Below the pieces are notes generated by a model, which had not been told where the DNA came from, did not search any database, and saw only the letters and a program-made list of their open reading frames with translations. Shown one piece after another: positions 1 to 14,301 of a stretch of 14,301 bases of DNA. The position numbers were made by a program, and so were the translations under genes. The stretch spans positions 1 through 14,301 of the forward strand of contig PATE01000045.1 of NCBI GenBank assembly GCA_002712305.1, given 5' to 3'. The DNA is from Gemmatimonadota bacterium. Its GTDB lineage: Bacteria > Latescibacterota > UBA2968 > UBA8231. How positions within the stretch are numbered: position 1 is the stretch's first letter; each line of letters starts with the position of its first letter.

Positions 1-216
1 AGTGTCTCGACCTCTGCATCGGTCAACCCCACAAGCAGGGACGAGTATCCGATTCCATTATATGCCAAAATCACAACTCCTGACCAAGACTCGGCCCCAA
101 CTCCGACCGCCTTCACAATCACGCGTCAATATAGCGGCCGCGCTGGCAGATCGTCAAGCCGAGAATCGTCGCAACTTCCTTAGAACGCTGGACTTGTGAG
201 AGTGTGCCTCAGCTGA
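1..216. other. Left-edge stretch with no supported gene
   Basis: I see no recognisable protein here. A plus-strand frame stays open from base 2 to a TGA at 197-199, but its 65-residue product matches no family I know, its third codon positions are not enriched in G/C as in the neighbouring genes, and no ribosome binding site precedes its internal ATG at 62. It could be the 3' end of a gene that starts outside the window. The stretch lies downstream of the minus-strand phosphodiesterase gene and may simply be intergenic. Confidence 0.4.
57..87 (-). promoter_or_regulatory. Possible leftward promoter (perfect TATAAT)
   Basis: On the minus strand, bases 62-57 read TATAAT, a perfect -10 hexamer in an AT-richer patch than the surroundings. 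The best -35 match is TTGGTC at 87-82, with a long 19-base spacer and only three of six matches. It would drive transcription towards base 1, where a minus-strand ATG lies at 19-17. It may therefore serve a gene that is mostly outside the window. The weak -35 keeps confidence low. Confidence 0.22.
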
Positions 217-1071
217 CTAACCACCGTCGCGGCGGCGCTGGTCGCCCAGACGACGCAACCGACGGCGCCGTCCCCAGCGACTCGGTTTGAGCCGTTGGCG
301 TCGACCGAGTGGGGAGAGGATGGCTCCCTGTTGTTCGAGGTCGGCCAAAACCTGATTCAGACGCTGCGGGTGGTTGGTAATGATTCCTTGCACACCGAGT
401 TGGGTCATGTCGCGCATGACGATGTCTTCGTCAACGGTCCAGACCCATACGCTCAAGCCACGCTTGCGCATCTCTTCATGGAAGACGGGGGTGAGGGCTG
501 CATGCCAGATCGACAACGTGTTTGCACCAACGCCCAACACCTCACGCGCCAGCCGGCGCGCCCTCAAGCGAGAAGGCGCTTTGGGAAACTCCCCCATCAG
601 CAGGGCCGTCGGCGTCGTGGGGTCGATGAGATTCACGCGTCGCACCGTTTCGGCTTCGAAGGACTGGATCACGACCCCATTTTGGGCATCGACGGACTGG
701 ATCTGCTGGAGCACTTTTTCGGCCATGTGGTCGGCCTTGATTTCGATGAGCACGACCGCTCGATGACGGGCCAGCTCCAGAACCTCTGCGAGGGTAGGGA
801 TCGCTTCCTTCGCGAATTTTCTTGAGAACCAGGAGCCGGCATCGGCCTTCAGGATCTCGTCGTAGGTGAGCTCGGCCACGAGGCCTGTGCGATCGGTCGT
901 CCGATCGAGCGTCGGATCGTGGATGACCACTACCTCGCCATCGGCACTGGCACGCACGTCGATCTCCAGCAGATCGACACCCTCCTGAATCGCCATCTCC
1001 AGGGCAGCGAGGGTATTCTCCGGGGCCTGGGCAGAGGCTCCGCGATGAGCGATGCGTAGCGGATGGATCAA
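217..1071 (-). CDS. Glycerophosphodiester phosphodiesterase, cytosolic UgpQ type
   Basis: Predicted to hydrolyse glycerophosphodiesters (deacylated phospholipids) to sn-glycerol 3-phosphate and an alcohol. The GDPD TIM-barrel signature is clear: HRG at residues 9-11, PENT at 17-20, the metal-binding E-I-D at 36-38, then VIHDPTLDRTT with catalytic His51, and later LIEIK. The end of the barrel shows VWVWTVD and GIITNHP. No signal peptide or membrane segment is present, so it should be cytoplasmic. The start is TTG; HRG at residue 9 is normal for the family and leaves no room for a much later start. The last 30 or so residues form an arginine-rich tail beyond the usual domain of about 240 residues. 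The gene lies 23 bases downstream of apgM on the same strand, so co-transcription is likely. Family assignment is secure; the exact substrate is not. Confidence 0.93.
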   Translation of the reverse strand: MIHPLRIAHRGASAQAPENTLAALEMAIQEGVDLLEIDVRASADGEVVVIHDPTLDRTTDRTGLVAELTYDEILKADAGSWFSRKFAKEAIPTLAEVLELARHRAVVLIEIKADHMAEKVLQQIQSVDAQNGVVIQSFEAETVRRVNLIDPTTPTALLMGEFPKAPSRLRARRLAREVLGVGANTLSIWHAALTPVFHEEMRKRGLSVWVWTVDEDIVMRDMTQLGVQGIITNHPQRLNQVLADLEQQGAILSPLGRRQRLKPSRWGRRRRLRRLGDQRRRDGG

Positions 1072-1094
1072 TGCAGAAACCTAGGGCGTCGCAC

Positions 1095-2309
1095 TCATGC
1101 CCCGAACTTGCTCAGTCTTCCTGCATGCGCCAGCGCCAGCGCCATCAGGGATGAGGAGGGCAGATGGCCCAGCGAACCCAGGGAACAACCTCGTTCGTCG
1201 AAGGTCGCCGAGGGCATCGGCAGGGCTCGTTGACTGGCCACCGCAACAGGTATTGGATGCCAGCTGTGACTGCCCATCGTTGAAGGCGTTGAGTGATCGC
1301 CCGTGACAATCAACACGTCCGGGTCGAGATCGGTGATCGCGGGCAGATAGGTGTCTGCCTCTTCCAGCAAACTCACCTTCAGGTCGAAGTTGCCATCTTC
1401 GCCCGCCGAGTCGGTCTTCTTCACGTGTACGTAGAAGAAGTCAGCTTGTGTGTCGTGCCAGAGTCGTGTCAGCAGTTGAGTTTCGGAGGCCAGATCATAT
1501 TCCGTGTCGGGAGTCTCCATGCCCACAGCGCGCGCCACGCCGCGATACATCGGGTAACCGGCGATACCCACCGGCGTCAGTCCATAGGCCTGCTGCATTG
1601 TGGCCAGAGAGGGATAGGCTCCAAAACCACGAATCAGAACCATGTTGGCCGGTGATTCCTGAGCCAGAAGCTGGCGGGCCTGGACAAGGAACTGTTCCGC
1701 CACGTCGATCATGCGGTCGTCCTGGTCGCCGGAGCCCCGAAGTGGGAGCGGGGCATGACCCGTCACCTGCGGATCCGAGTCACTCACCCCCGCCGCAAGG
1801 CCCTCGCCGCGGAACACGACGGCGGCCCTGTATTCCATCTCCGGCGCGACGCAGACCTCGACGCCTTCGATGTCCACCTGGCCGAGGATCTTGCACAGAC
1901 GCTCACACACCTCTGTGGGAATCCTGCCCGCTCGACGATCGGTGACCAGGCCCTGCTCATCGATCGTGCAGAAGTTGAGTCTTGCCGCCACGTCGCCTGG
2001 CGAGAAATCCAGACCCAGCCCCAGGGCTGACAAGGCACCGCGGCCGATGTCACTCGTCCATGGATCGTATCCAAACAGCGCCAGATGAGCCGGGCCGGAA
2101 CCCGGGGTGAATCCTGGCCCCAGGGGAGACAACACGCCGCAGGATGCCCGCCGCGCGAGCTGGTCTAGATGGGGCAGCGATGCCGTCTCCAGTTCGGACC
2201 GGCCGGTCTCGGGATGGGGCAGTCCCCCCAGCCCGTCGATCACCAGCAGGACAATACGCGAGGTGGCGTCTCTGATGCACAGATCTGCCGTGTAGTCTGA
2301 ACTGATCAA
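1095..2309 (-). CDS. apgM: Archaeal-type cofactor-independent phosphoglycerate mutase (ApgM)
   Basis: Interconverts 3-phosphoglycerate and 2-phosphoglycerate in glycolysis and gluconeogenesis, in the cytoplasm. It belongs to the alkaline phosphatase superfamily. The first metal site is VIDGLGG with Asp25. The phosphorylated serine lies in TPGSGPAHLALFGYDP (Ser71). HVKKTDSAGEDG and the C-terminal metal cluster TGDHSTP...HSWHPIP follow, all typical of ApgM rather than of the longer bacterial GpmI. The length of 404 residues fits the family. The start is TTG, chosen because a purine-rich stretch (GGAGGAAGGGAAGGGA) lies directly upstream. It sits between recJ and the GDPD gene on the same strand, 103 bases after recJ. 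ApgM homologues occur in scattered bacteria as well as archaea, so the gene alone does not imply recent transfer from archaea. Confidence 0.93.
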   Translation of the reverse strand: MISSDYTADLCIRDATSRIVLLVIDGLGGLPHPETGRSELETASLPHLDQLARRASCGVLSPLGPGFTPGSGPAHLALFGYDPWTSDIGRGALSALGLGLDFSPGDVAARLNFCTIDEQGLVTDRRAGRIPTEVCERLCKILGQVDIEGVEVCVAPEMEYRAAVVFRGEGLAAGVSDSDPQVTGHAPLPLRGSGDQDDRMIDVAEQFLVQARQLLAQESPANMVLIRGFGAYPSLATMQQAYGLTPVGIAGYPMYRGVARAVGMETPDTEYDLASETQLLTRLWHDTQADFFYVHVKKTDSAGEDGNFDLKVSLLEEADTYLPAITDLDPDVLIVTGDHSTPSTMGSHSWHPIPVAVASQRALPMPSATFDERGCSLGSLGHLPSSSLMALALAHAGRLSKFGA

Positions 2310-2311
2310 TG

Positions 2312-2327
2312 TCCCTTCCCTTCCTCC
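2312..2327 (-). promoter_or_regulatory. Ribosome binding site of apgM
   Basis: On the minus strand this reads as an extended purine run, GGAGGAAGGGAAGGGA, ending two bases before the TTG codon at 2309. It offers several anti-Shine-Dalgarno pairings at usual spacing and decides for the TTG start, since no ATG is available at this position in the frame. Confidence 0.6.
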
Positions 2328-2412
2328 GTCGAATGTGCTGGGTGCGTGGTGGGTCTGCCGCTGGCTTGCAATGTGGGTCGTAGTAGTGAACAGGACCTCA
2401 GGGACGCAATCA

Positions 2413-4242
2413 TCAGGAGCTTGCCATGATCTCTGGCTCCCGTTCGACGGTCGTGACCGGTGTATCGATCCCGTCGTCGAGATCCTTTACCAGCATCTGC
2501 ACCATCCCCATTCCGTTGAACGTATCCTCCGAGAGCTGAAAGGCGATGTCGACCCGTTGACCGATGGTCAGTTCGCGCCCCCGCTCTCCGTGTCGGAACC
2601 ACATGGCGGTGCGAGGTCGGCCATTGACTCGCAGACTCAGCTTCAGATGCTCCCCCTCTTTTCCGACGCGCGTCAGTGCCATGATTTCCAGATCACGACA
2701 GCAGAACACGGGCATGGGATTACCTTGCCCGAAAGGTTCCAGGTCGCGCAGTTGCTCGATAGTTGCCATGTCCACGTCGATTTCGGCCAGTTCAACATCG
2801 ATATCGAGGTGAGCCTGCAGCTGATCGGTGGTGATGTTCTGGTTGGCGTGATCAATCAGATCTGCTCGAAACGCTTCGTATCGATCCGCTTCCAACGAGA
2901 ATCCCGCCGCTGCCGCGTGGCCGCCGTAGGTGGTCAGATGCTCACGGCAGGCGACGATTCCATCGTTGATGTCGTATCCCGGAATGCTGCGCGCCGACCC
3001 GACGTAGAGTCCGTCACGCCTCACGTCGGTGACCGCAACGGCGGGACGCCAGTGAGACTCGGAGAGTTTGCTGGCCAGCAGACCGATAACACCCAGATCC
3101 CACGATTCACCGAGGGTACACAGCAGATGCTCGCGGGCCAGGATCTCTTCGGTCACCAGACTCGCCGCCTCCTGCATCCCCTCTTTCTCCAGTTGTTGAC
3201 GCTGACGATTCAGATCGTGCAGATGGGCGGCACGTTCGCGCGCGTCTTCGCCATCTGTCGTGCGCAGCAGTTCAAGAGCCAGATCCGGTTTCTCGAGACG
3301 CCCAGCTACGTTGAGTCGGGGGCCGAGATAGAATGCGATCGCCTGCGTATCGAGGGCGGTCCGGTCGCAGCGAGCGACGGTGCGCAATTCACGCAGGCCC
3401 GGTCGGCGTGTCCGTTCGGCCGCTCGCAGGCCGTATTTGACGAGAATTCGATTCTCATCGAGCAGGGGAACCACATCGGCTACCGTGCCGAGCACGACCA
3501 GATCAAGCAGATCATTGAGGTAACGCCGTCGTTCGTCGGCGGCGAGGAAGGCCTCGCTCAGCAACTGCACGACCTTGAACGTGACTCCTACACCCGCCAG
3601 TCCCTTGAAGGGGTAGTCACAGTCGCGGCGATTCGGATTGATGATGCTGTGAGCAGGTGGCAGATCCTCATTCTGTCGGTGGTGATCGATGACCACAACA
3701 TCAACGCCTTCCTGCTGGGCAAGCTTCAACGCATCGAAGGCGGAGATCCCATTGTCGACGGTGATGATCAGACTCGCACCCAGCTTCAGTGCTCGCTCCA
3801 CACCCGGGGGTTTGAGTCCGTAGCCATCGGTGTGTCGATGTGGAAGCAGATAGTGGCACTGAGCGCCGGCACGTTCGAGGAAATCCATGATCAGTGCCGT
3901 GCTGGTCACGCCATCCACATCGTAGTCGCCGTAGACGACGAGAGTTTCGCCGCGCCGGATGGCCCGTTCGATTCGCTCTGCACCGCGTTCGAGGTCTACG
4001 AGCAACTCGGGACGATGCAGGGCCTCGGGGCCGACTTGAAGATCTGTCAATTGTAGGTGACGCGTGGCCAGCAGCACATCCAGAAGAGAGTCGTAAGCTC
4101 CCTCATGGGCTACCTGCCAGACGGGAAAAAGACGCATGCAGGACCACTTCAACGGGGAGAGCGTTGGGGGGATGCTCAGGATCTGATCGCCAGCAGGGAC
4201 AATGTCAGAAGGGGCCCGAACCGGGTCAAGCAGTGAAGCCAC
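2413..4242 (-). CDS. recJ: Single-stranded-DNA-specific exonuclease RecJ
   Basis: A 5'-3' single-strand DNA exonuclease acting in recombinational repair (RecFOR pathway), mismatch repair and base excision repair. DHH-family motifs appear in order: YGDYDVDGVTSTA (104-116), TVDNGIS (161-167), IDHH (185-188), LVVLGTVADVVPL, then the DHHA1 domain with SARS and YGGHAAAAGFS, and a C-terminal OB-fold-like segment. The length of 609 residues is typical. The start is uncertain. Position 4242 is a GTG and gives a poorly conserved 35-residue leader; the first ATG in frame is at 4137 and begins MRLFPVWQ, just before the region that resembles other RecJ N-termini. Neither has a strong ribosome binding site. 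The gene is divergent from rsmB and is followed by apgM 103 bases on. Confidence 0.95.
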   Translation of the reverse strand: MASLLDPVRAPSDIVPAGDQILSIPPTLSPLKWSCMRLFPVWQVAHEGAYDSLLDVLLATRHLQLTDLQVGPEALHRPELLVDLERGAERIERAIRRGETLVVYGDYDVDGVTSTALIMDFLERAGAQCHYLLPHRHTDGYGLKPPGVERALKLGASLIITVDNGISAFDALKLAQQEGVDVVVIDHHRQNEDLPPAHSIINPNRRDCDYPFKGLAGVGVTFKVVQLLSEAFLAADERRRYLNDLLDLVVLGTVADVVPLLDENRILVKYGLRAAERTRRPGLRELRTVARCDRTALDTQAIAFYLGPRLNVAGRLEKPDLALELLRTTDGEDARERAAHLHDLNRQRQQLEKEGMQEAASLVTEEILAREHLLCTLGESWDLGVIGLLASKLSESHWRPAVAVTDVRRDGLYVGSARSIPGYDINDGIVACREHLTTYGGHAAAAGFSLEADRYEAFRADLIDHANQNITTDQLQAHLDIDVELAEIDVDMATIEQLRDLEPFGQGNPMPVFCCRDLEIMALTRVGKEGEHLKLSLRVNGRPRTAMWFRHGERGRELTIGQRVDIAFQLSEDTFNGMGMVQMLVKDLDDGIDTPVTTVEREPEIMASS

Positions 4243-4248
4243 CCATGG

Positions 4249-4276
4249 TTGTGAGTATGTACCTTCAGCCTATCTT
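4249..4276 (+). promoter_or_regulatory. Possible promoter for rsmB in the divergent region
   Basis: TTGTGA (4249-4254) and TATCTT (4271-4276) are separated by 16 bases and each match four of six consensus bases. The expected transcription start is about 15-20 bases before the ATG at 4300. The site lies between two divergent genes, where a promoter must exist in at least one direction. The match is weak. Confidence 0.25.
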
Positions 4277-4299
4277 TGCCGCTCCATGGAAACGGTTTG

Positions 4300-5718
4300 A
4301 TGCGAACACACGTGAAGAGCAGCGCCGGCACCGGATCTTCCGCCGATCCGGCCCGGACACTGGCCCTGACACTCCTCTGCCGGGCGGAGTCCGAGAATCG
4401 TCCGCTCGACGAACTGATCGGTGAGCTCACAGCTGAGACGGCTGGCGACATCGACGCGGACCCGGCCCGAGATCTGGATGGTCGCGATCTACGATTCGTA
4501 CGCCAGTTGGTGGCGGGCGTCACGAAATGGCGCTTACACATCGATTGGATCCTTCGTCCCCATTCGAAACGCCCTTTGCCCGAGTTGACGGCTACCGTCC
4601 GCCACGCACTTCGCCTGGCGGTTTTTCAGATGCGATGGCTCGACCGAGTGCCTGCGCGGGCTGCCGTCCACTCGGCCGTGGAACTGACCAAATGCTTCGA
4701 GCACCGTGGGGCGGCCTCCTACGTGAATGCCGTCCTGCGCAATCTCACGCGCGCCGATGAACCGATCGCCTACCCGGATCGGGAAACGAACCTGGCCCAT
4801 CATCTATCGGTCGTTCACTCGCATCCGCGTTGGCTCGTGGAACGCTGGCTTTCGCGGTGGGAACTGCCACAGACGGAAGCTCTGTTGCGCGCTAACAACG
4901 AACACCCTCTTCTCTATGCGCGCAGAAATCCGTTGCGCGCCGGTCACGACCAGTTTCTCGGCAATCTCCCTGCCGGTGCGCATCCTCGACAGGTCGATGA
5001 GACGACGTACGAAGTGTCCGCTCCCGAAGGCTTCTTTCAGAGTCCGGCTTTCGTAAAGGGTCAGGCTTACGTACAGGATGTGGCCGCTTCGGAGCCTGTT
5101 CGAATGCTGGCGCCCGCCATCGGCGAGCGTTGTCTGGATCTTTGCGCGGCACCGGGTGGCAAAGCGATTCAGGCGGCCATCGCCGGGAAAGATGAGATCG
5201 AACTCATTGCCGTCGATCGATCTCCTCAGCGACTGCGCCTGCTGCGCCAGAGCACGCAGCGGCTGGGGCTGTCGTCCATTCGCTGTGTCGCCGGCGATGG
5301 CGACGAAATTCCTCTCGGTCAGAGGACCGGCTTTGATCGCGTGCTGGTCGATGCACCGTGCAGTGGCACGGGCGTATTCCGGCGCCACCCCGATGCACGA
5401 TGGAACAAGCGAGCCAAGGACCTGCCACGGCATGCAAAGCGACAACTGCAGCTGTTGCACAGTGGCTTTCGGCATCTGCGCGTAGGTGGTGTCCTCGTGT
5501 ACAGCACCTGCTCGCTGGAGATGGAAGAGAATGACCAGGTCGTTGAGTCCTTTCTCGCTCAACACCCGGACGCCCGACTCGACGAAGATACCAGCGACCG
5601 TCCCCCTCGATTCCAGAGCGTACCCGGTCGCGATGAGGGAGATGGGAGTTTTGCAGTCCGCTTGAAGAAGGTGGCAGACCACGGCGAAGAACCGCAGATT
5701 CCGAGAAAGGCCGTGTGA
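4300..5718 (+). CDS. rsmB: 16S rRNA (cytosine-967-C5) methyltransferase RsmB
   Basis: Transfers methyl from S-adenosylmethionine to C5 of a 16S rRNA cytosine (C967 in E. coli). The N-terminal third is a helical NusB-like RNA-binding domain (up to about residue 150), followed by an NCL1/Sun-type Rossmann methyltransferase. The SAM-binding motif DLCAAPGGK starts at residue 280, the motif IV cysteine lies in DAPCSGTG (Cys354), and the catalytic cysteine in STCSLE (Cys404), counting from the ATG at 4300. An in-frame TTG at 4276 would add eight residues but has no ribosome binding site; the ATG at 4300 has GGAAA upstream. Its TGA overlaps the GTG at 5715 of the next frame, so translation is probably coupled to the PASTA gene. 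The gene heads the rsmB-PASTA-rpe run. Confidence 0.94.
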   Translation: MRTHVKSSAGTGSSADPARTLALTLLCRAESENRPLDELIGELTAETAGDIDADPARDLDGRDLRFVRQLVAGVTKWRLHIDWILRPHSKRPLPELTATVRHALRLAVFQMRWLDRVPARAAVHSAVELTKCFEHRGAASYVNAVLRNLTRADEPIAYPDRETNLAHHLSVVHSHPRWLVERWLSRWELPQTEALLRANNEHPLLYARRNPLRAGHDQFLGNLPAGAHPRQVDETTYEVSAPEGFFQSPAFVKGQAYVQDVAASEPVRMLAPAIGERCLDLCAAPGGKAIQAAIAGKDEIELIAVDRSPQRLRLLRQSTQRLGLSSIRCVAGDGDEIPLGQRTGFDRVLVDAPCSGTGVFRRHPDARWNKRAKDLPRHAKRQLQLLHSGFRHLRVGGVLVYSTCSLEMEENDQVVESFLAQHPDARLDEDTSDRPPRFQSVPGRDEGDGSFAVRLKKVADHGEEPQIPRKAV

Positions 5719-5720
5719 CC

Positions 5721-6467
5721 ATGCTGAGATCGCTGCTTCGCAAAGCTCTGATTGCGGCGGGGGGGGGCGGGGGCTCGGGCGTGGCGTTTCTCCTGATCGT
5801 CGACAACCTGATCATGCCCAGCATCGTCGATGTGCCGAGGGTTACCGTGCCCGACGTGCGGAATCGAACGATCCCCGAAACCGAACGGCTTGTTCGTCAG
5901 ATGGGCCTGCGTCTCACCCTTCGTGACAGCGTGTTTTCAGACGCCCCCGTGGGCCACGTGCTGGAGCAGGAACCCGGCCGCGGCGAATACATCAAGAGAG
6001 CACGACGCGTCTTCGTCGATGTAAGCCGGGGGCCACGTCGGTATCCGGTGCCAGATGTCACCGGCGGCTCCCACCGAGAAGCGGAATTGCAGATTCGTGG
6101 CCATCAGCTGACGGTGGGTGCGATTCTGCAGGAGTCTTCAACCGCGATCCCAGTGGGCGTTGTATTGCGACAGCAGCCCGTGGCCGGAATCGAGTTGCCC
6201 CGTCGCGCCCAGGTCGACCTGGTCGTGAGTAGCGGATCACCCTTTGAGCCGAAGAACGTCCCCGACGTGGTGGGGTTATCGATCGATACGGTCGAGGACA
6301 CGCTGGCCAAGTATGAAATGAGACTTGGCAACATCGATGAACGTGTCGCCGAGCACGTGCTACCCGGCCAGATTCTCGCCCAACAACCGGCCGGTGGCAC
6401 CCTGCTGCCCCGGCATACTCCCATCGACCTGGTCGTGAGCGTTCGGCCGGTCCCCGAACCCGAGTGA
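5721..6467 (+). CDS. Membrane-anchored triple-PASTA protein
   Basis: About 248 residues. A short basic N-terminus (LRSLLRK) and one hydrophobic segment with a glycine run (AAGGGGGSG) continue into FLLIVDNLIMP, a probable signal anchor. Three PASTA repeats follow, at roughly residues 40-105, 107-178 and 181-245. Each begins with a V-P-D-V type motif (VPDVRN, VPDVTG, VPDVVG) and ends in a V-D-V-S or D-L-V-V-S strand. PASTA repeats bind muropeptides or uncrosslinked peptidoglycan and usually sit on Ser/Thr kinases or penicillin-binding proteins; no kinase or transpeptidase domain is present here. It probably projects into the periplasm and contacts the cell wall. The start may be GTG 5715, which overlaps the rsmB stop, or ATG 5721; AGAAAGG precedes both. 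A run of nine G lies in the anchor-coding part. The gene sits between rsmB and rpe. Confidence 0.85.
   Translation: MLRSLLRKALIAAGGGGGSGVAFLLIVDNLIMPSIVDVPRVTVPDVRNRTIPETERLVRQMGLRLTLRDSVFSDAPVGHVLEQEPGRGEYIKRARRVFVDVSRGPRRYPVPDVTGGSHREAELQIRGHQLTVGAILQESSTAIPVGVVLRQQPVAGIELPRRAQVDLVVSSGSPFEPKNVPDVVGLSIDTVEDTLAKYEMRLGNIDERVAEHVLPGQILAQQPAGGTLLPRHTPIDLVVSVRPVPEPE
5759..5767 (+). repeat. Nine-G homopolymer inside the PASTA protein anchor
   Basis: Nine consecutive G bases, then one C and five more G, encode the Gly-Gly-Gly-Gly-Gly run in the membrane segment. A gain or loss of one base would shift the frame after about 15 codons. This is the longest homopolymer I noticed in the window. It may be a slippage site or just a difficult region for sequencing. 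Confidence 0.8.
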
Positions 6468-6473
6468 GTTCAC

Positions 6474-7139
6474 ATGGCCGCTGATTCGCAATCCGTCTGC
6501 ATCGCCCCCTCCCTGTTGGCCTCTGATTTTTCTCAGTTGGCCGCAGATATTGACCGTGTCACCGCGGCGGGGGCCGACCTGCTCCATCTGGATATCATGG
6601 ACGGCCATTTTGTCCCCAACCTCAGCTACGGGATTCCCGTCGTAGAGGCCATTCGTCGCTGTACAGATCTCGAACTCGATACGCATCTGATGTTGACTGA
6701 CCCCCTCGAGTATGTGGGCCCCTTTGTCGATGCGGGAGCAGATTTCCTGACGATCCATCTCGAGGCATGCCCCGAACCGGCGCCCGTGCTGCGTGCCATC
6801 CGCGATCGCGGCATCGGTTGTGGCCTGGCCGTCAACCCGGGAACCGAAATCGATGGGATGCTCCCGTATCTGCCGGACATCGATCTTGCGCTGATCATGT
6901 CCGTTCAACCGGGGTTTGGCGGACAATCCTTTCAGGACCACGTGTTGTCGAAGGTTCGCCTTGTGCGGGAAGAGATAGACAGCCAGGGCCTGACCGTCGC
7001 CCTCGAGATCGATGGGGGTGTTGGGCCGAAGAATGCGGCCCTCTGCCGGGAGGCGGGGGCCCGCTGGCTTGTCGCTGGATCCTCCGTTTTTGGCGCAGCT
7101 GACGCGACCGAGGCGATCCAGATCATCCGCACAGGCTGA
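6474..7139 (+). CDS. rpe: Ribulose-phosphate 3-epimerase
   Basis: Interconverts ribulose 5-phosphate and xylulose 5-phosphate in the pentose phosphate pathway or Calvin cycle, in the cytoplasm. The TIM-barrel signatures are all present: IAPSLLASDF near the N-terminus with the catalytic serine, HLDIMDGHFVPNLSYG with metal-binding His and Asp, THLM, TIHLEA, MSVQPGFGGQSF, LEIDGGV with the second catalytic Asp, and the phosphate-binding VAGSSVFG. The length of 221 residues is standard. The ATG at 6474 is preceded by GAGTGAG and lies six bases after the PASTA gene, so the two genes are probably in one operon. A gap of 167 bases separates it from ffh. Confidence 0.96.
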   Translation: MAADSQSVCIAPSLLASDFSQLAADIDRVTAAGADLLHLDIMDGHFVPNLSYGIPVVEAIRRCTDLELDTHLMLTDPLEYVGPFVDAGADFLTIHLEACPEPAPVLRAIRDRGIGCGLAVNPGTEIDGMLPYLPDIDLALIMSVQPGFGGQSFQDHVLSKVRLVREEIDSQGLTVALEIDGGVGPKNAALCREAGARWLVAGSSVFGAADATEAIQIIRTG

Positions 7140-7144
7140 ATCGA

Positions 7145-7173
7145 GGGGCACCTACTCGAGGCACGAGCGCCCC
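7145..7173 (+). terminator. Possible hairpin after rpe
   Basis: GGGGC (7145-7149) can pair with GCCCC (7169-7173), enclosing a second stem of CTCG (7155-7158) and CGAG (7164-7167) with a five-base loop. The hairpin begins six bases after the rpe stop. No clean U tract follows (the next bases are CCAACTCTTT), so it would be a poor intrinsic terminator. It may instead be an RNA-stability or attenuation structure. Confidence 0.25.
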
Positions 7174-7179
7174 CAACTC

Positions 7180-7208
7180 TTTCCAGATCTCGTTCCGGCT
7201 CCTATATT
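7180..7208 (+). promoter_or_regulatory. Candidate promoter for the ffh-rplS cluster
   Basis: TTTCCA (7180-7185, four of six matches to the -35 consensus) and TATATT (7203-7208, five of six to the -10) are separated by 17 bases, in the AT-richest part of the rpe-ffh gap. It would give a 5' leader of about 90 bases before the ffh start. I see no 4.5S RNA or known riboswitch in that leader. Confidence 0.35.
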
Positions 7209-7291
7209 TAACAGCTCCCATCTGGTTACTTGAAGATCCCTGTTGGATCTGCGTAACGGCAACTGGCAGCTAGCTCGCATCCCACTCCACT

Positions 7292-7297
7292 GGAGAG
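7292..7297 (+). promoter_or_regulatory. Ribosome binding site of ffh
   Basis: GGAGAG lies nine bases before the TTG at 7307. It supports this codon as the start, which gives the MFDRLTDRL N-terminus expected for Ffh. Confidence 0.55.
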
Positions 7298-7306
7298 AAT
7301 CCCAGC

Positions 7307-8653
7307 TTGTTCGATCGCCTTACAGATCGACTGGACAACGTCTTCCGCAATCTGCGCGGGCAGGGCAAGATCACCGAGAAAGCCCTCGACGAATCTCTGC
7401 GTGAGATCCGGCGCGCCTTACTCGAGGCGGATGTCAACTTCAAGGTGGCCAAGGCCTTCCTCGCGCGTGTTCGCGAGGCTGCAGTGGGACAGCAGGTCAT
7501 GCGATCGCTGACACCGGGCCAACAGGTCATCAAGATCGTTCACAGCGAGTTGGTGCAATTGCTTGGTGCCACGTCCGAGCCTGTACGTCTGTCCCCCCAC
7601 CCGCCTACGGTTCTGCTTCTGGTCGGCCTGCAGGGCAGTGGCAAGACGACGATGGCCGGCAAACTGGCGCAGCACTTCAAGGCGCAGGGCCGACTCCCAT
7701 TTCTGGTCGCCGCCGACACCTACCGGCCAGCTGCGGTAGACCAGTTGCGCACACTGGGTGCCGCGATCGATGTCCCTGTCTACGGCCCAGAGGAGGCTGA
7801 CTCCTCAAACCCCATCGACATCTGTCGGGATGGTCTGGAGCAGGGTCGCGTCACGAATCGATCTCTCGTCATCCTCGATACGGCGGGTCGCCTGAGTATC
7901 GACGAAGAAATGATGGCCGAGTTGACCCAGATCAAACAGTCCGCCTCTCCTCATGAGACTCTGTTTGTGGCCGATGCCATGCTGGGTCAGGATGCGGTTG
8001 AGACGGCGAGCCGATTCCACGAGCAACTGGCCTTTGATGGCGTAGTGCTGACGAAAATGGATGGCGATGCCCGTGGCGGAGCTGCCCTCTCTGTTCGCGA
8101 GGTCACCGGTGCGCCGATCAAGTTCATCGGCACGGGAGAGAAGGTGGAGGCCCTCGAGGCCTTTCACCCGGAGCGTATCGCCTCTCGTATTCTCGGCATG
8201 GGTGATGTTCTTTCGCTGGTCGAGAAGGCCGAAGCGGTCTTCGACAAAGAGCAGGCCCAGAGCATGGAGGAGAAGCTGCGAAAGCAGCGATTCACCTTCG
8301 ATGATTTTCGTTCCCAGTTGCAGGCCGTGCGTAAGATGGGTCCCCTGGATCAGCTGCTGGGCATGATTCCCGGCGCCGGCAAGGCTCTGCAGGGCCAGCA
8401 GATCGATGAGTCCGCCCTCGGCCAGGTGGAGGCGATCATCGGTTCCATGACTCGCGATGAGCGATCGCACCCACGGATCCTCAATGGCAGTCGCCGCAAG
8501 CGGATTGCCAAGGGCAGTGGAACGACTGTGCAGGATGTCAATCGCCTTGTGAAACAGTTCAATGCGATGCAGAAGATGATGAAACAGATGAGTCGGCCTT
8601 CACGTCGAGGGCGTGGGGGGCCAAAGATGCCTTCCCTGCCGATGACCGGCTGA
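7307..8653 (+). CDS. ffh: Signal recognition particle GTPase Ffh (SRP54)
   Basis: GTPase subunit of the signal recognition particle. It binds signal sequences of nascent membrane proteins together with 4.5S RNA and docks on FtsY. The N-domain is a helical bundle starting MFDRLTDRL. The G-domain carries GLQGSGKT (107-114), DTYRPAA, the DTAGR switch, TKMDGDARGG and IGTGEK. The methionine-rich M-domain follows from about residue 300, with FRKMGPLDQLLGM-like sequence (VRKMGPLDQLLGMIPG), then RIAKGSGTTVQDVN and the RNA- and signal-binding MQKMMKQM. The length of 448 residues is standard. The start is TTG with GGAGAG upstream; no ATG would preserve the conserved N-terminus. It heads ffh-rpsP-rimM-trmD-rplS, a classic translation cluster. 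The 4.5S RNA gene is not in the window. Confidence 0.97.
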   Translation: MFDRLTDRLDNVFRNLRGQGKITEKALDESLREIRRALLEADVNFKVAKAFLARVREAAVGQQVMRSLTPGQQVIKIVHSELVQLLGATSEPVRLSPHPPTVLLLVGLQGSGKTTMAGKLAQHFKAQGRLPFLVAADTYRPAAVDQLRTLGAAIDVPVYGPEEADSSNPIDICRDGLEQGRVTNRSLVILDTAGRLSIDEEMMAELTQIKQSASPHETLFVADAMLGQDAVETASRFHEQLAFDGVVLTKMDGDARGGAALSVREVTGAPIKFIGTGEKVEALEAFHPERIASRILGMGDVLSLVEKAEAVFDKEQAQSMEEKLRKQRFTFDDFRSQLQAVRKMGPLDQLLGMIPGAGKALQGQQIDESALGQVEAIIGSMTRDERSHPRILNGSRRKRIAKGSGTTVQDVNRLVKQFNAMQKMMKQMSRPSRRGRGGPKMPSLPMTG

Positions 8654-8688
8654 CACGACAGATATTGAACAAGATGCCCCACACCACC

Positions 8689-8694
8689 AAGGAG
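8689..8694 (+). promoter_or_regulatory. Ribosome binding site of rpsP
   Basis: AAGGAG lies seven bases before the TTG at 8702, an almost ideal Shine-Dalgarno site and spacing. It fixes the TTG codon as the start of S16. Confidence 0.75.
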
Positions 8695-8701
8695 TGAACC
8701 G

Positions 8702-9133
8702 TTGGTCAAGCTTCGACTGAAACGACTGGGACGAAAGAAACATCCCTTTTACCGCATCGTCGCCATGAATGCGAATGCACCACGCTCTGGACAGGCGCTG
8801 GCCGAGCTCGGCACCTACGATCCGATGGCGGCTGTGTTCGACCTTGACGAGGAGGCCGCCCTGCAGTGGTTGCGCAATGGCGCCCAGATGTCTGAGACCG
8901 TCCATGATCTGCTCAAGAGCAAGGGCACCCTCGCCAAGTATGCCGGAGAGGAAGGCGTCGAGAAGGAAGGCGCCCTCAGCCACGACAAACCCAAGCGACG
9001 CAAGAAGCTGGCTTCTTCGTCAGCACCGGCCGCCGAAGAAGCTGTGGCCGAGGCGCCTGCTGAGGAAGCTGTTGCCGACAGTGCTGACGCTGCTGAGACG
9101 CCCGCTGAGGGCGAGGCCACAGACGAGTCATAA
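8702..9133 (+). CDS. rpsP: 30S ribosomal protein S16 with Ala/Glu-rich tail
   Basis: Small-subunit protein that binds 16S rRNA and is needed for 30S assembly. The core is unmistakable: VKLRLKRLGRKKHPFYRIV at the N-terminus, then LGTYDPM and a WLRNGAQMSETV helix. The start is TTG, fixed by an AAGGAG site seven bases upstream. The protein has 143 residues, against about 80-90 for compact S16. The extra C-terminal 55-60 residues begin with a basic patch (KPKRRKKL) and continue as an acidic, alanine-rich, low-complexity stretch (AAEEAVAEAPAEEAVADSAD and onward), probably disordered on the ribosome surface. Long S16 tails of this kind are known in several FCB-group bacteria. It is 48 bases after ffh; rimM follows without an intervening KH-domain gene. 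Confidence 0.96.
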   Translation: MVKLRLKRLGRKKHPFYRIVAMNANAPRSGQALAELGTYDPMAAVFDLDEEAALQWLRNGAQMSETVHDLLKSKGTLAKYAGEEGVEKEGALSHDKPKRRKKLASSSAPAAEEAVAEAPAEEAVADSADAAETPAEGEATDES

Positions 9134-9186
9134 CGAAGCATTCCCCTACGGGTGGTTCGGGCTGCCTGCTGGGGTGATGATGCTCG

Positions 9187-9705
9187 ATGGATGAGCGGAT
9201 CACCATCGGTTATCTGACACGCACCAAGGGTGTGCGTGGATGGGTTGTAACCGAACCTCTGACCGACGATCCGCAGCGCTTCGAAGCGGTGGAAGACGTC
9301 GTTGTCGAGATCGATCGACGAGAGCCCATCGAATTGAAGATTGAAGACTGGCGCCTGGAAGGCACCATTGTGTTGCTGAAGTTTGCAGGAATCGACACGC
9401 CGGAAGAAGCTCGGGAGCGGGTGCTAAAAGGATATGTCACGATCCCCAAGGATCAGTTGGCTCCCCTGCCCGAGGGCCAGCACTATGTCTTTGACCTGAT
9501 CGGATGTCAGGTCGTGGATGCCGATGATGTCGATCTGGGGGCCGTGACCCAGGTGTTACCGATGCCCTCTGCAGATGTGATTGTCGTGCGCCGCCCGCGA
9601 GGTGGCGAGGCGATGGTTCCCATGGTGGGAGATTTCGTCGAGTCTGTCGATACGCAGGCACGACAGATCAGAGTTCGGGGTGTGGAGGAACTCTTCGAGG
9701 ACTGA
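9187..9705 (+). CDS. rimM: Ribosome maturation factor RimM
   Basis: Assists late assembly of the 30S head and binds S19. The N-terminal RimM barrel begins RITIGYLTRTKGVRGWVV with the family's EPLTDDPQRF motif; the middle has LEGTIVLLKFAGIDTPEEAR. The C-terminal PRC-barrel shows YVFDLIGCQVVD, then MVPMVGDFVESVD. The length of 172 residues is normal. The ATG at 9187 follows GGGGTGAT. It lies 53 bases after rpsP and ends six bases before trmD, the usual order in this cluster. Confidence 0.95.
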   Translation: MDERITIGYLTRTKGVRGWVVTEPLTDDPQRFEAVEDVVVEIDRREPIELKIEDWRLEGTIVLLKFAGIDTPEEARERVLKGYVTIPKDQLAPLPEGQHYVFDLIGCQVVDADDVDLGAVTQVLPMPSADVIVVRRPRGGEAMVPMVGDFVESVDTQARQIRVRGVEELFED

Positions 9706-9711
9706 AGGCGG

Positions 9712-10446
9712 ATGCAGGTCGACATCGTCACCCTATTCCCCCGGTTCTTCGTCGAGCCCCTTGCCACCAGCATTGTCGGTCGTGCGATTGAGGGCGGTCA
9801 ATTGGAGGTCAACCTCCATGACCTGCGGACATACTCTCAGGATCGGCACCGTACCGTCGATGACACGCCGTATGGCGGTGGTGGTGGCATGGTGATCAAG
9901 CCCGGACCTGTCGCAGCGTGCTGGACAGAGAATCAGTTCGCCAACGGGCACTGCATCCATCTGAGCGCCGACGGCGAACCGCTCACTCAGGATCTGGCAG
10001 CGGAACTGTCGCTGCAGTCGCATATGGTTCTGCTGTGTGGGCACTACAAGGGGGTCGATGAGCGGGCGAGACGGCAGCTCATCGACCAAGAGATCTCGAT
10101 TGGTGACTATGTTCTGACCGGTGGAGAACCGGCTGCGCTGGTCTTGATCGACGCTGTGACCCGGCTGATTCCCGGCGTGTTAGGTAACTTCAGTTCGGCC
10201 ATGGCCGACAGCTTTCATGACGACGGGCTACTGGATTGCCCGTGGTACACGCGGCCTGCCTCCCACGGTGGAGAGGAAGTGCCGCAGGTCCTGCTCGGTG
10301 GCGATCACGGGCAAGTACAGTCATGGAGACGACGCCAGGCATTGCGGCGGACGTTCGAACGACGCCCCGACTTGCTCGAGCGGGCCGACCTGGATGAAGA
10401 AGAGCGGCGCCAAGTTGCTGATTGGCGACAGAAAAAAGAAGAATGA
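9712..10446 (+). CDS. trmD: tRNA (guanine-37-N1) methyltransferase TrmD
   Basis: Methylates N1 of G37 next to the anticodon in tRNAs reading CUN, CCN and CGG, which prevents +1 frameshifting. The SPOUT trefoil-knot domain is clear: VDIVTLFP at the N-terminus, HDLRTYSQDRHRTVDDTPYG with GGGGM, then the SAM-binding knot LLCGHYKGVDER and ISIGDYVLTGGEPAA with LIDAVTRLIPGVLGN. The C-terminal domain includes the conserved LLDCPWYTRPASHGGEEVPQVLLGGDH. The length of 244 residues is normal. It is coupled closely to rimM (six-base gap) with AAGG just before the ATG. Confidence 0.97.
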   Translation: MQVDIVTLFPRFFVEPLATSIVGRAIEGGQLEVNLHDLRTYSQDRHRTVDDTPYGGGGGMVIKPGPVAACWTENQFANGHCIHLSADGEPLTQDLAAELSLQSHMVLLCGHYKGVDERARRQLIDQEISIGDYVLTGGEPAALVLIDAVTRLIPGVLGNFSSAMADSFHDDGLLDCPWYTRPASHGGEEVPQVLLGGDHGQVQSWRRRQALRRTFERRPDLLERADLDEEERRQVADWRQKKEE

Positions 10447-10508
10447 ACCGGTCGTGACACGGGCGTATGCCTGACAGCGACCGCTACCACTCAGAAAGAG
10501 ATTGAGCC

Positions 10509-10856
10509 ATGGATGCCACCCTACTCCGCGAGATCACCGCGGATCAGATCAAGAGCGACCTGCCGGAGTTTGGCGCCGGTGACACGCTGCGTGTTCACGT
10601 GCGCGTCATCGAAGGTGAGAAGGAACGTGTACAGATCTTCGAAGGAGATGTGCTTCAGCGACGTGGCTCCGGTGTGCACGAGACCTTTACGGTGCGCAAG
10701 GTGACGCAGGGGATCGCCGTCGAGAGAATCTTCCCCGTGCACTCGCCCCGGATTGCCAAGATCGAGCGCACCCGAATTGGCCGTGTGCGCCGCGCACGCC
10801 TCTTCTATCTGCGCGACCGCAAGGGTCGTGCAGCCCGCATCCGCGAAAAGCGATAG
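10509..10856 (+). CDS. rplS: 50S ribosomal protein L19
   Basis: Large-subunit protein at the 30S-50S interface. Family signatures: the [16 protein letters not shown] start of the SH3-like barrel, [38 protein letters not shown], then [22 protein letters not shown]. At 115 residues it is standard length. A GA-rich stretch (GAAAGAGATTGAG) precedes the ATG. It is the last gene of the conserved ffh-rplS cluster. The usual rnhB follow-on gene is absent and a small membrane protein starts seven bases after the stop. Confidence 0.97.
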
Positions 10857-10863
10857 GCAGACT

Positions 10864-11109
10864 GTGAGCCACTCAGAGTTGCCTTTTGGTCGTCGCAACT
10901 GGATTCTTTTTGGTGCTTCCCTGGCTGTGATCGGTCTGGGGTATGTGCTGCTGAGCATCCCCCCTGCAGACGGTTTCCTGTCACTGACTGCGGCACCCAT
11001 TCTGTTGGTGGGGGGGTATTGCGTCCTTCTTCCCGCGGCGATTCTCGTGCGAGACACCGAGGTCGCCGCCACCACCGTCGGCGTCGACAAGGACGCCGCC
11101 AGCGCCTGA
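10864..11109 (+). CDS. Small two-helix membrane protein, DUF3098-like
   Basis: About 81 residues starting at GTG 10864, seven bases after the rplS stop. The order FGRRNWILFGASLAVIGLGY, a short polar loop, then APILLVGGYCVLLPAAIL gives two transmembrane helices. This resembles the DUF3098 family of small bacterial membrane proteins (a basic N-terminus with a conserved Asn, two helices, and an A-P-I-L-L-V-G-G-type second helix). The family has no known function. The frame stays open further upstream inside rplS to 10753, but that part is a shadow of L19. The ribosome binding site is weak, so translation may be coupled to rplS. Family assignment is by eye. Confidence 0.6.
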   Translation: MSHSELPFGRRNWILFGASLAVIGLGYVLLSIPPADGFLSLTAAPILLVGGYCVLLPAAILVRDTEVAATTVGVDKDAASA

Positions 11110-11166
11110 CCTCTGACGAGATCGGCCTCCTCCAATCCGGTCGCGGATCTGAAAAGCTCGGTTCCT

Positions 11167-11831
11167 ATGCGCATTCTCATCGCTGAAGATGAGGTCACCT
11201 CCCGGCTTCTGATCGTGAAGTCGCTTGAGTCCTTCGGACACGATGTCGTGGTCTCGGAGGATGGTCTGCAGGCGCAGGCCGCCCTGAAGGTCGAGGACGC
11301 TCCTCATCTGGTCATCCTCGACCCGATGATGCCTGGCATGGATGGTGTTGGGTTTGTACGTGGCTGCGCGAGCAGCCCTGGGGCAAGCTTCGCTACGGCA
11401 TCATGCTGACGGCCCTCAACAAAGAGGATGACGTCGTTGATGGCCTCAATGCAGGGGCCAACGACTATCTCACCAAGCCGTTTCGACGCAACGAACTGGG
11501 AGCTCGTGTTCGTGTAGGCGAACGCGTCATCGAGCTTCAGCAACGGTTGGCACAACGTGTCGTCGAACTCGAGGCGGCCTTGTTGCAGGTCAAGACACTG
11601 CATGGTCTGCTGCCGATCTGTTCCTACTGCAAGAAAATCCGCGACGACAAGAACTACTGGACTCAGGTTGAACCTTACATCGAGCAACACACCGATGTAA
11701 GGTTCTCACACGGGATCTGCCCCGACTGCTACAGAACGACCGTCGAGCCGCACCTGAAAGAGCAGGAGGAGCAGGCTCACAAGGCGGCAAAGTCGGGATC
11801 CAGTTATGACGACGATACCGTCATCGGATGA
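11167..11831 (+). pseudogene. Response regulator with Cys-rich C-terminal domain, frameshifted
   Basis: The first frame (11167-11409) gives a receiver start: MRILIAEDE with the acidic pair, and phospho-acceptor Asp52 in [13 protein letters not shown]. Homology then continues in the -1 frame: [33 protein letters not shown] with the conserved Thr and Lys, a coiled coil, and [14 protein letters not shown]...YW...[10 protein letters not shown], a four-cysteine segment found after receiver or sensor domains in many bacteria. Restoring one T in the TTT at 11353-11355 rejoins both parts as GGG-TTT-TGT-ACG-TGG and yields about 221 residues. No DNA-binding domain is present. The broken frame ends at a TGA (11407-11409) that overlaps an ATG (11403) in the second frame, so the C-terminal part could be made by reinitiation. 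The last bases overlap the next gene's start (ATGA). It is either a true lesion or a homopolymer error. Confidence 0.8.
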
Positions 11832-12652
11832 GTGGTGTCCTCGACCATGACGTGGACCTGTATTCCGATCAGGCGGCCCCTCATCGCCTGAACGATTTGT
11901 CCTGCGCCCATGATAGAAAATCGATGTTTGATCGTGACGGATTCCTCGTCATCGGCAAGGCCATCTCCATCGAGCGTACGCAGGCGGCAATACAGGCCGT
12001 AGATGACCTGATCGATGGCATGGTGCCCGACTTTCGCGGTGTTCAGTTCGAACCCGGCCACGGTGACAAATCCGAACTGAAGAGCGATGCCCGCCGTCGA
12101 GCCGTGCGCAAGCTGATGCGTTTCGTCGACTTCGATCCCCGACTTCATGAACTGGCATACGACACCGATCTGCTCGCCGTCGTGTCGCTGTTGATGGATG
12201 GCCAACAGCCCCACCTGTTCCAGGACATGGCACTGCTCAAGCCCCCCGGGGGCAGTGAGAAACCATGGCATCAGGACATGGCCTACTTCAACGTGCCCAT
12301 CGACACACCAGTCATTGGTGTGTGGATTGCATTGGAGGATGCGAACGTAGACAATGGTGCACTTCGGATGCAGCCTGGCTCGCACCTGCTGGGTCCCATG
12401 GAACACTTCAAACGGCGTGATTGGCAGATCTGTGATACGCAGATCGATCGAGGTCGTGACCTGGCCGTCCCCCTACCCGCCGGGGGTGCTCTGATCTGGC
12501 ACGGACTGACCCAGCACGGCAGCCCCATCAACCGTTCCGACCAACGGCGATGCGCGCTGCAGTTCCATTATCGACCGGCCAGCACACAAGAGACGACCTC
12601 CGAGGAACGCATGGCTATCTACGGTGGTGACGTCCGCGGCGCCGAATGTTGA
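11828..12652 (+). CDS. Phytanoyl-CoA dioxygenase (PhyH) family oxygenase
   Basis: Fe(II)/2-oxoglutarate-dependent oxygenase of the PhyH superfamily, predicted to hydroxylate a small organic substrate in the cytoplasm. The double-stranded beta-helix motifs are visible: [10 protein letters not shown] gives iron ligands His148 and Asp150, [13 protein letters not shown] is the typical middle strand, and HGSPIN supplies the distal His230, followed by an Arg ([12 protein letters not shown]) that would bind 2-oxoglutarate. At 274 residues it is family-typical. The N-terminal [14 protein letters not shown] matches the usual opening. The ATG overlaps the stop of the response regulator, suggesting translational coupling. 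PhyH proteins are very diverse (halogenases, ectoine and phosphonate hydroxylases), so the substrate cannot be named. Confidence 0.88.
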
Positions 12653-12692
12653 CGGGCGATGCGCAGGTGTGAGCAAGTCCTTACCTTCGCCA

Positions 12693-12698
12693 TACAAT
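12693..12698 (+). promoter_or_regulatory. Possible -10 element before the DUF1992 gene
   Basis: TACAAT (five of six matches to the -10 consensus) lies 19 bases before the ATG at 12718, in the 65-base gap after the PhyH gene. No convincing -35 is found 16-18 bases upstream (TGAGCA matches three of six). AAGG at 12707-12710 serves as ribosome binding site. Confidence 0.25.
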
Positions 12699-12717
12699 AC
12701 CTCCGCAAGGCGATCTG

Positions 12718-13431
12718 ATGGCCCGTCGACTCCGCCGGAATCCTGACGGCACACCGGCAACAACCAATCTCAATGACATCCTGACAGAAGCGGCCAGCGC
12801 TGATGCAATTCGGCATCTTCCGGGCAAAGGTCAGCCTCTGGACCTGCACGGGTATTTTCACGCAGACCCGGAGCAACGGGTGGCCGGTCGCCTCATCCGC
12901 GACAATGACATTCTCCCCCAGCCCTTGCAGGACCGCCGCGACGCAGAGATCCACCGCGAGCAGGTTTCGGCACTGATCGAAAAGACGAGGCTGGAGCTGA
13001 GTGTCCGACGTTTCAACATCGAGCAACTCGGCGCGTGCCTGGCCCCTTCTGAGCCGCAGACCGACACTCCCGCCTACATGAAACACGGTTTGGTCAGTGT
13101 GTTGCCTGGTGCCCAACACGCAGCCGCTCATGAATTGGACCACGCCGTGACAGAGTATGCCAGCCGTCGGCGTCAGGCGCATCAGCGTGTTCGAGAGGCG
13201 GCCGAGAAGGCCTACGAGGCGGCCCGAGGTCTCAATGAACAGGTCATGCTCAGTCGTCATCTGCCTGCCGGTCTGCAGGTGATCGGCGTCCGGGTGGACA
13301 CCTTCCTCGGCCAGTTCGACGAGGCGATCCCGGATCTGCCAGCCCTGCCCGCCTCATTCGTCGTTGCCCCCAGCTCCGGACGCGTTTCAGGTTGGCGTCG
13401 CCTGCTGCACGCCTTGAGCAGGCGACCATGA
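12718..13431 (+). CDS. DUF1992 (DnaJ homologue subfamily C member 28-like) protein
   Basis: The N-terminal 75 or so residues match the DUF1992 pattern: a helix (LNDILTEAASADAIRHL), then LPGKGQPLDLHGYF, and a helix with RVAGRLIRDNDILPQPLQDRRD. The remaining 160 residues are mostly helical and charged, with likely coiled-coil stretches (RREIHREQ-like helices and RRRQAHQRVREAAEKAYEAA) and a less regular C-terminus. The family is named after a domain shared with human DNAJC28 but lacks a J domain here, and its role in bacteria is unclear. At 237 residues it is longer than the shortest bacterial members. The ATG has AAGG seven bases upstream. The stop overlaps the start of the creatininase-like gene (ATGA), so those two are translationally coupled. 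Confidence 0.8.
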   Translation: MARRLRRNPDGTPATTNLNDILTEAASADAIRHLPGKGQPLDLHGYFHADPEQRVAGRLIRDNDILPQPLQDRRDAEIHREQVSALIEKTRLELSVRRFNIEQLGACLAPSEPQTDTPAYMKHGLVSVLPGAQHAAAHELDHAVTEYASRRRQAHQRVREAAEKAYEAARGLNEQVMLSRHLPAGLQVIGVRVDTFLGQFDEAIPDLPALPASFVVAPSSGRVSGWRRLLHALSRRP

Positions 13432-14180
13432 CTGTCGACGCTGAGTACGGTCGCTACGAACGGATGCGCCCCGATGAACTGTCGGCGATGGTGGCCAAGT
13501 CACCTGTGGCGTACTGGCCGCTGGGGTTGCTGGAACACCATGGCTGGCATCTGCCCATCGGCTTCGACGGCCTCAAGGCGGATGGATTGTGCGAACGATT
13601 GGCACGCCGGGTCGGCGGGATCATTCTGCCTACGATGTGGTGGGGAGGCGGTGGAGGCCATCATGTGTTCCGCTGGACCCACTATCAACCCGAATCGGCC
13701 TATGCCGAGATCGTGACCAACACCGTTGGGCAGCTGTTTGATCACGGCTTCCGTGCCATCGTTCTGTTGGCAGGTCACTATCCCTGGCAACAGACGCTGG
13801 ATCGTATCGTCCCCTCCTTGCGTGCTGACAACGACCAAGGCTTGATTCTGGCCGGCACCGAATTGACCGTCGGCGGAGATCTCGGTCTGTCAGGCGATCA
13901 TGCGGCTCTGGAGGAGACCTCCTATGGCCTGGCGCTATTCCCCGACCTGGTGGACATGAAAGCCATGACCTCTGGCCGAGGTGGGTCAGACATCTGGCCG
14001 AAATCGGGGCCGCCAGAGAAGTCTGAACAACATCCGGCTGTCGAATTCGATCCGGCGCAACCGTTGTTTGCCCAGATGGGACAAGACCCACGCATGGGCT
14101 CTGGCGCACGCGGAACTTACTCGGCCAATACATTGCTCGATGAGTTGCAGCAACAGTTGGAACAGTTCCTCCATCGATAG
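13428..14180 (+). CDS. Creatininase/creatinine amidohydrolase family hydrolase
   Basis: A metal-dependent amidohydrolase of the creatininase fold, which includes creatininase, MftE-type peptidases and FAPy deformylases. The N-terminal metal motif is LEHHGWHLPIGFD with Glu36, His38 and Asp47 in the expected spacing. LLAGHYPWQ supplies the next His, and LSGDHAALEETSYGL is the usual G-D-H-A...E-T-S segment. In Pseudomonas creatininase a Glu follows two residues after that His; here the position is Pro, as in many non-creatininase members, so creatinine is an unlikely substrate. MWWGGGGGHH is a distinctive loop. The ATG at 13428 is chosen because it overlaps the DUF1992 stop by four bases; the frame stays open to 13392, which would be a false extension. 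The length of 250 residues is normal. The substrate is unknown. Confidence 0.87.
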   Translation: MTVDAEYGRYERMRPDELSAMVAKSPVAYWPLGLLEHHGWHLPIGFDGLKADGLCERLARRVGGIILPTMWWGGGGGHHVFRWTHYQPESAYAEIVTNTVGQLFDHGFRAIVLLAGHYPWQQTLDRIVPSLRADNDQGLILAGTELTVGGDLGLSGDHAALEETSYGLALFPDLVDMKAMTSGRGGSDIWPKSGPPEKSEQHPAVEFDPAQPLFAQMGQDPRMGSGARGTYSANTLLDELQQQLEQFLHR

Positions 14181-14213
14181 AAGATGCCCCAACGACCTCA
14201 TCCACCCCTTACC

Positions 14214-14218
14214 AGGAG
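14214..14218 (+). promoter_or_regulatory. Ribosome binding site of the SelW-like gene
   Basis: AGGAG sits six bases before the TTG codon at 14225, ideal spacing. It is the main reason to accept that codon as a start and shows that the stretch after 14180 is a gene rather than a spacer. Confidence 0.65.
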
Positions 14219-14224
14219 CTGACC

Positions 14225-14301
14225 TTGGCGGACCGTGTCGAAATCCAATACTGCGCCAGTTGAGGGTATATCTCCCAAACCGTCAGTTTGGCGGAACAAA
14301 T
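14225..14301 (+). CDS. SelW-like (Rdx family) selenoprotein, 5' part, in-frame UGA as Sec
   Basis: Only the first 25 codons are inside the window. Reading TGA 14261-14263 as selenocysteine (U), the protein is MADRVEIQYC-ASUGYISQTV and continues SLAEQ. This fits the opening of the SelT/SelW/SelH (Rdx) family: a first beta strand V-x-I-x-Y-C, the thioredoxin-like C-x-x-C/U motif (here Cys10 and Sec13), then a helix with a hydrophobic face. In Cys homologues the second redox residue is Cys at the UGA position. The TTG start has AGGAG six bases upstream, and TTG starts recur in this window. A SECIS-like hairpin follows the UGA. The family is thought to act in thiol redox reactions in the cytoplasm. 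It starts 44 bases after the creatininase-like gene on the same strand. The alternative, a 12-residue chance ORF ending at TGA, is less likely because motif, ribosome binding site and hairpin all agree. Confidence 0.78.
14271..14295 (+). promoter_or_regulatory. Bacterial SECIS-like hairpin
   Basis: TCTCCCAAAC (14271-14280) pairs with GTTTGGCGGA (14286-14295): six perfect pairs next to the loop, one C-C mismatch, then one G-U and two Watson-Crick pairs. The loop is CGTCA (14281-14285), with G as its second base. It starts 17 bases after the UGA. Bacterial SECIS elements lie in the coding sequence just after UGA, with a small apical loop carrying G among its first two bases at about 16-37 bases from the UGA. 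They bind the C-terminal domain of SelB. All these criteria are met. The pairing was worked out by hand. Confidence 0.72.

Follow-up and report, generated by a model that had tools for sequence, protein, structure and literature searches.

Selenoproteins resembling SelW were reported from bacteria in 2005, when they outnumbered every other family in the Sargasso Sea set, with 48 genes; their function was described as unclear, the CxxU motif suggesting a redox function (PMC1088965). A 2006 paper also treats bacterial SelW-like selenoproteins and states that very few or no Cys homologues occur in organisms containing selenocysteine (Sec) (PMC1794560), and SelW-like proteins have been tabulated as CxxU/pfam10262 (PMC9312934). 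The window analyzed here, i.e., the whole stretch of 14,301 bases at the start of a contig of 115,226 bases (bases 1-14301), ends within a gene that has the same family (PF10262), the same CxxU motif and the same bacterial-type hairpin with a G in its loop just after the UGA as the bacterial SelW-like selenoproteins described in these three sources (PMC1088965, PMC1794560, PMC9312934). It differs in its host lineage, which is a Latescibacterota/Gemmatimonadota-type metagenome-assembled genome (MAG), whereas passages of PMC1794560 name Deltaproteobacteria and Clostridia; the open-access literature on selenoproteins in Latescibacterota yielded two passing co-mentions only. In eukaryotes, SECIS elements are found in the 3' untranslated region and do not adjoin the UGA (PMC1088965), unlike the hairpin of the window, which sits in the coding region. 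A preliminary description of this DNA had called the family known, in agreement with its documentation since 2005-2006. The gene is a further example of the SelW-like family, ordinary for a Sec-using bacterium, and leaves knowledge of the family itself unchanged; it is also a clean example of a gene that a standard-code gene caller would cut short or miss.

The features of the locus, in window coordinates, are as follows.

14214 to 14218, + strand: Shine-Dalgarno-like AGGAG; a similar AGGAG lies upstream of the relatives' ATG, GTG or TTG
14225 to 14227, + strand: TTG start codon; ATG in the same-genus genome (MADRVEIQYCASU)
14225 to 14301, + strand: first 25 codons and 2 further bases of a SelW-like (Rdx) selenoprotein gene 75 codons long; the remainder lies beyond the window and ends with a TAG at contig 14450-14452
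14252 to 14254, + strand: TGC, encoding the first Cys in the redox motif CxxU; invariant in two alignments
14261 to 14263, + strand: in-frame UGA, predicted Sec
14280 to 14294, + strand: CCGUC-AGUUU-GGCGG, a predicted SECIS hairpin of bacterial type that lies within the coding region

Near the right end of the window, the AGGAG is followed after a 6-nt gap by the TTG, from which the frame reads LADRVEIQYCAS-(UGA)-GYISQTVSLAEQ, beginning with GYISQ after the UGA and staying open to the window end. Re-reading of the sequence thus bore out the ribosome binding site, the TTG start and the open frame of the preliminary description, which had also proposed extending the contig past 14301. The first base beyond the window, contig base 14302, is a single N that falls within the Rdx gene and creates an ATN codon in this contig; past this base, the reading frame goes on as LATKKLDLQQLTIVPHRGGRFEVTVDGELVFSKLEQGRFPEWEEIQPHL, with 49 more codons before the TAG. 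The extended frame does not close early, since 62 codons follow the UGA, and the product has 75 amino acids. The same-genus genome has ATG at the position of the window's TTG and ATC at the contig's ATN codon, which supports both the TTG start and the frame across the N.

Upstream of the Rdx frame, a creatininase-like gene ends at 14180. When conserved operon partners were sought, a similar upstream frame was found in the same-genus genome, and the other relatives checked had different long upstream frames; because these frames differ among relatives, the context gives no function. Farther upstream, at window 11167-11831, a response-regulator gene occupies two frames owing to what looks like a one-base deletion near 11350; the same-genus genome has an intact copy (76% DNA identity), so the gene of the window is either misassembled or broken.

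A PF10262 profile search of the whole genome found the locus with an E value of 1e-16 and one TGA inside the match, and the translated product matched Pfam Rdx (PF10262) at 7.1e-20, with residues 4-72 of 75 aligned to profile positions 1-69 and a score of 71.4 bits against a curated cut-off of 22.6. Judged by these two E values, the open frame is far beyond chance. The Pfam match reaches well 3' of the UGA, to residue 72, and the Rdx membership proposed from the letters of the window therefore stands. The product also matched the NCBIfam model TIGR02174 (CXXU_selWTH; 1.7e-17, 63.5 bits against a cut-off of 34.2) and fell below the cut-off of the narrower Campylobacter model NF041051 (69.6 against 88). 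The CxxC/CxxU motif after the first strand is present as YCAS-U, and its positions 10 and 13 are invariant in the alignments.

A sequence search against the PDB matched seven chains, the best being the SelW-related protein 2fa8 from Agrobacterium (E 1.8e-11), whose alignment places a Cys opposite the UGA of the window. For the same-genus orthologue (91% identical), AlphaFold2 gave a model with a pLDDT of 95.6 from an alignment of 36 homologues, and Foldseek searches with this model ranked bacterial SelW-related proteins first (2fa8, TM 0.90), followed by MIEN1, mouse SelW and thioredoxins. The predicted fold is the thioredoxin-like Rdx fold, as in the solved SelW-related proteins 2fa8, 2obk, 2oka, 2p0g and 3dex, which are 28-39% identical; 2fa8 and 3dex differ in having Cys where the window gene has its predicted Sec. 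Eukaryotic SelW (2npb, mouse) and MIEN1/C17orf37 (2ljk) share the Rdx fold and are more distant.

The preliminary description had assumed that the machinery for Sec would be encoded elsewhere in the genome, and a genome search found all of it: selA (553 bits), selB (350 bits, in a 654-amino-acid open frame), selD (351 bits; a single TGA inside the gene) and a tRNA-Sec (Rfam 66.6 bits against a cut-off of 47) to which ARAGORN assigned the anticodon tca (UCA). Weaker tRNA-Sec matches (L012-L018) were rejected, as they sit at Ser, Leu, Tyr and Gly tRNAs. The selD gene of the host (G000:C93:47061-47981) is a selenoprotein gene itself, with an in-frame UGA near the N terminus (TCGUAAK). A search for selenouridine synthase (TIGR03167) in the host genome, which is ~91% complete and holds the complete Sec machinery, gave no match; the selenium use found here is therefore Sec only, subject to that completeness.

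Alternatively, UGA might specify another amino acid throughout the genome. Such a code change would account for the open frame and for nothing further, and TGA is the stop codon of 10 of the 14 other protein genes in the window, which argues that the code as a whole is unchanged. On the strength of these stops elsewhere in the window, we rejected genome-wide recoding; the presence of a tRNA-Sec with the anticodon UCA and the Cys found at this position in homologues that do not have UGA likewise speak against it, leaving it a negligible probability.

Because the gene comes from one MAG contig and has an N nearby, one could also suspect that it is a pseudogene in decay, or that a Cys codon was misread as TGA during sequencing. 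This can be weighed against the occurrence of the UGA in other genomes. In a sample of 60 genomes of relatives, host included, 44 contained Rdx genes, 48 in total, and every gene had an internal TGA (the second TGA counted in the Rdx genes of G005 and G009 is the terminal stop). Read individually, all 48 class-relative genes have YCxxU and none has Cys. Among the 60 genomes, Rdx is confined to the host's class, where selA is nearly universal and SelW-like selenoproteins are near-universal as well. Four genomes of the class (G003, G004, G010 and G033) have no selA, no Rdx gene or neither in their assemblies, plausibly because these MAGs are incomplete. The 13 genomes from other classes of the phylum contained no Rdx gene, and selA was found in only one of them.

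Of 80 homologues from named genomes, 77 have UGA at the Sec position and 3 have Cys. Since Sec members supplied the query, these counts are skewed in favour of the Sec form. The UGA homologues span Latescibacterota, Gemmatimonadota, Planctomycetota, Chloroflexi, Acidobacteria, Poribacteria, Bacteroidales, Actinobacteria and others. The three with Cys, from Agrobacterium larrymoorei, a Rhizobiales bacterium and the Chloroflexi MAG CF_159 (L141, L146 and L152), provide the Cys homologue aligned at the UGA for which the preliminary description had recommended a search. Comparison with the same-genus gene revealed 27 synonymous and 6 nonsynonymous differences in 60 codons after the UGA (dN 0.077, dS 2.3), values that indicate strongly purifying selection 3' of the UGA. 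With the same UGA recurring in separate assemblies (all 48 related genes, 77 of the 80 homologues), with selection of this kind after it, and with Sec machinery carried by the genome, a pseudogene or an error is extremely improbable.

A hairpin, absent from the preliminary description, is present and conserved just 3' of the UGA; its loop starts 21 nt after the UGA, is small and apical and contains a G, the arrangement that PMC1088965 describes for a SECIS. Among 30 diverse class members, third-position identity between pairs sharing the amino acid was 1.00 at codons +6, +7 and +10 and 0.97 at codon +8, compared with 0.2-0.6 in most of the remaining gene, and the stem pair formed by columns 23/31 was U-A, U-G or C-G but never a mismatch. 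In the class alignment, 98.3% of stem cells pair; sliding the partner by one to three columns lowers this to 47% or less, and the covariation score exceeded all 500 shuffles and every slid control. For 37 homologues from other phyla together with the window, pairing holds in 92.6% of stem cells, and double changes occur at two pairs (C-G to U-A or A-U; G-C to A-U). The second loop position is G in 77 of 77 Sec homologues. The MFE fold of a 41-nt stretch of the window contains the hairpin as well and outperforms shuffles by no more than a modest margin (z -1.45); since such a single-sequence fold is weak evidence, we relied on conservation and covariation.

The analysis establishes the gene, its frame and family, the presence of the machinery genes, and the conservation of both UGA and hairpin. 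We are highly confident, on sequence grounds, in reading the locus as a selW-like selenoprotein gene (Rdx family, PF10262) whose UGA at 14261 would be read as Sec by means of the hairpin, with a predicted 75-amino-acid thioredoxin-like product. Ribosomes would start at the TTG at 14225, and the hairpin at 14280-14294 would recruit SelB with Sec-tRNA(Sec) to the UGA at 14261; with Sec inserted there, the completed protein would be thioredoxin-like and contain a Cys-x-x-Sec site. Judging by its family and by the machinery genes, we infer that Sec is almost certainly inserted at the UGA and that the product is probably a small oxidoreductase of the thiol/selenol type.

Sec insertion is generally inefficient, and the UGA might mainly terminate translation, making the full-length Sec protein a minor or selenium-regulated product. 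This differs from the preferred reading in efficiency only. The product released at the UGA would have 12 residues, too few for an Rdx domain, and most invariant residues lie 3' of the UGA; we therefore consider predominant termination very unlikely.

It is tempting to speculate that in this SelW-like clade Sec is fixed, and possibly ancestral, across many phyla, a suggestion that we make tentatively and with somewhat less than even confidence; a caveat is that patterns derived from Sec members served to retrieve the homologues. On this suggestion, the hairpin CCGUC-AGUUU-GGCGG would have been preserved almost unchanged over phylum-level distances, and the encoded residues and recognition by SelB would thereby have become locked together.

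In one family of the class, three genomes carry a second Rdx copy with a C-terminal extension of ~35-40 residues that contains a Cys-Cys pair:

L060:930-1271 (G041): second Rdx copy with C-terminal extension
L062:836-1174 (G043): second Rdx copy with C-terminal extension
L063:946-1287 (G040): second Rdx copy with C-terminal extension
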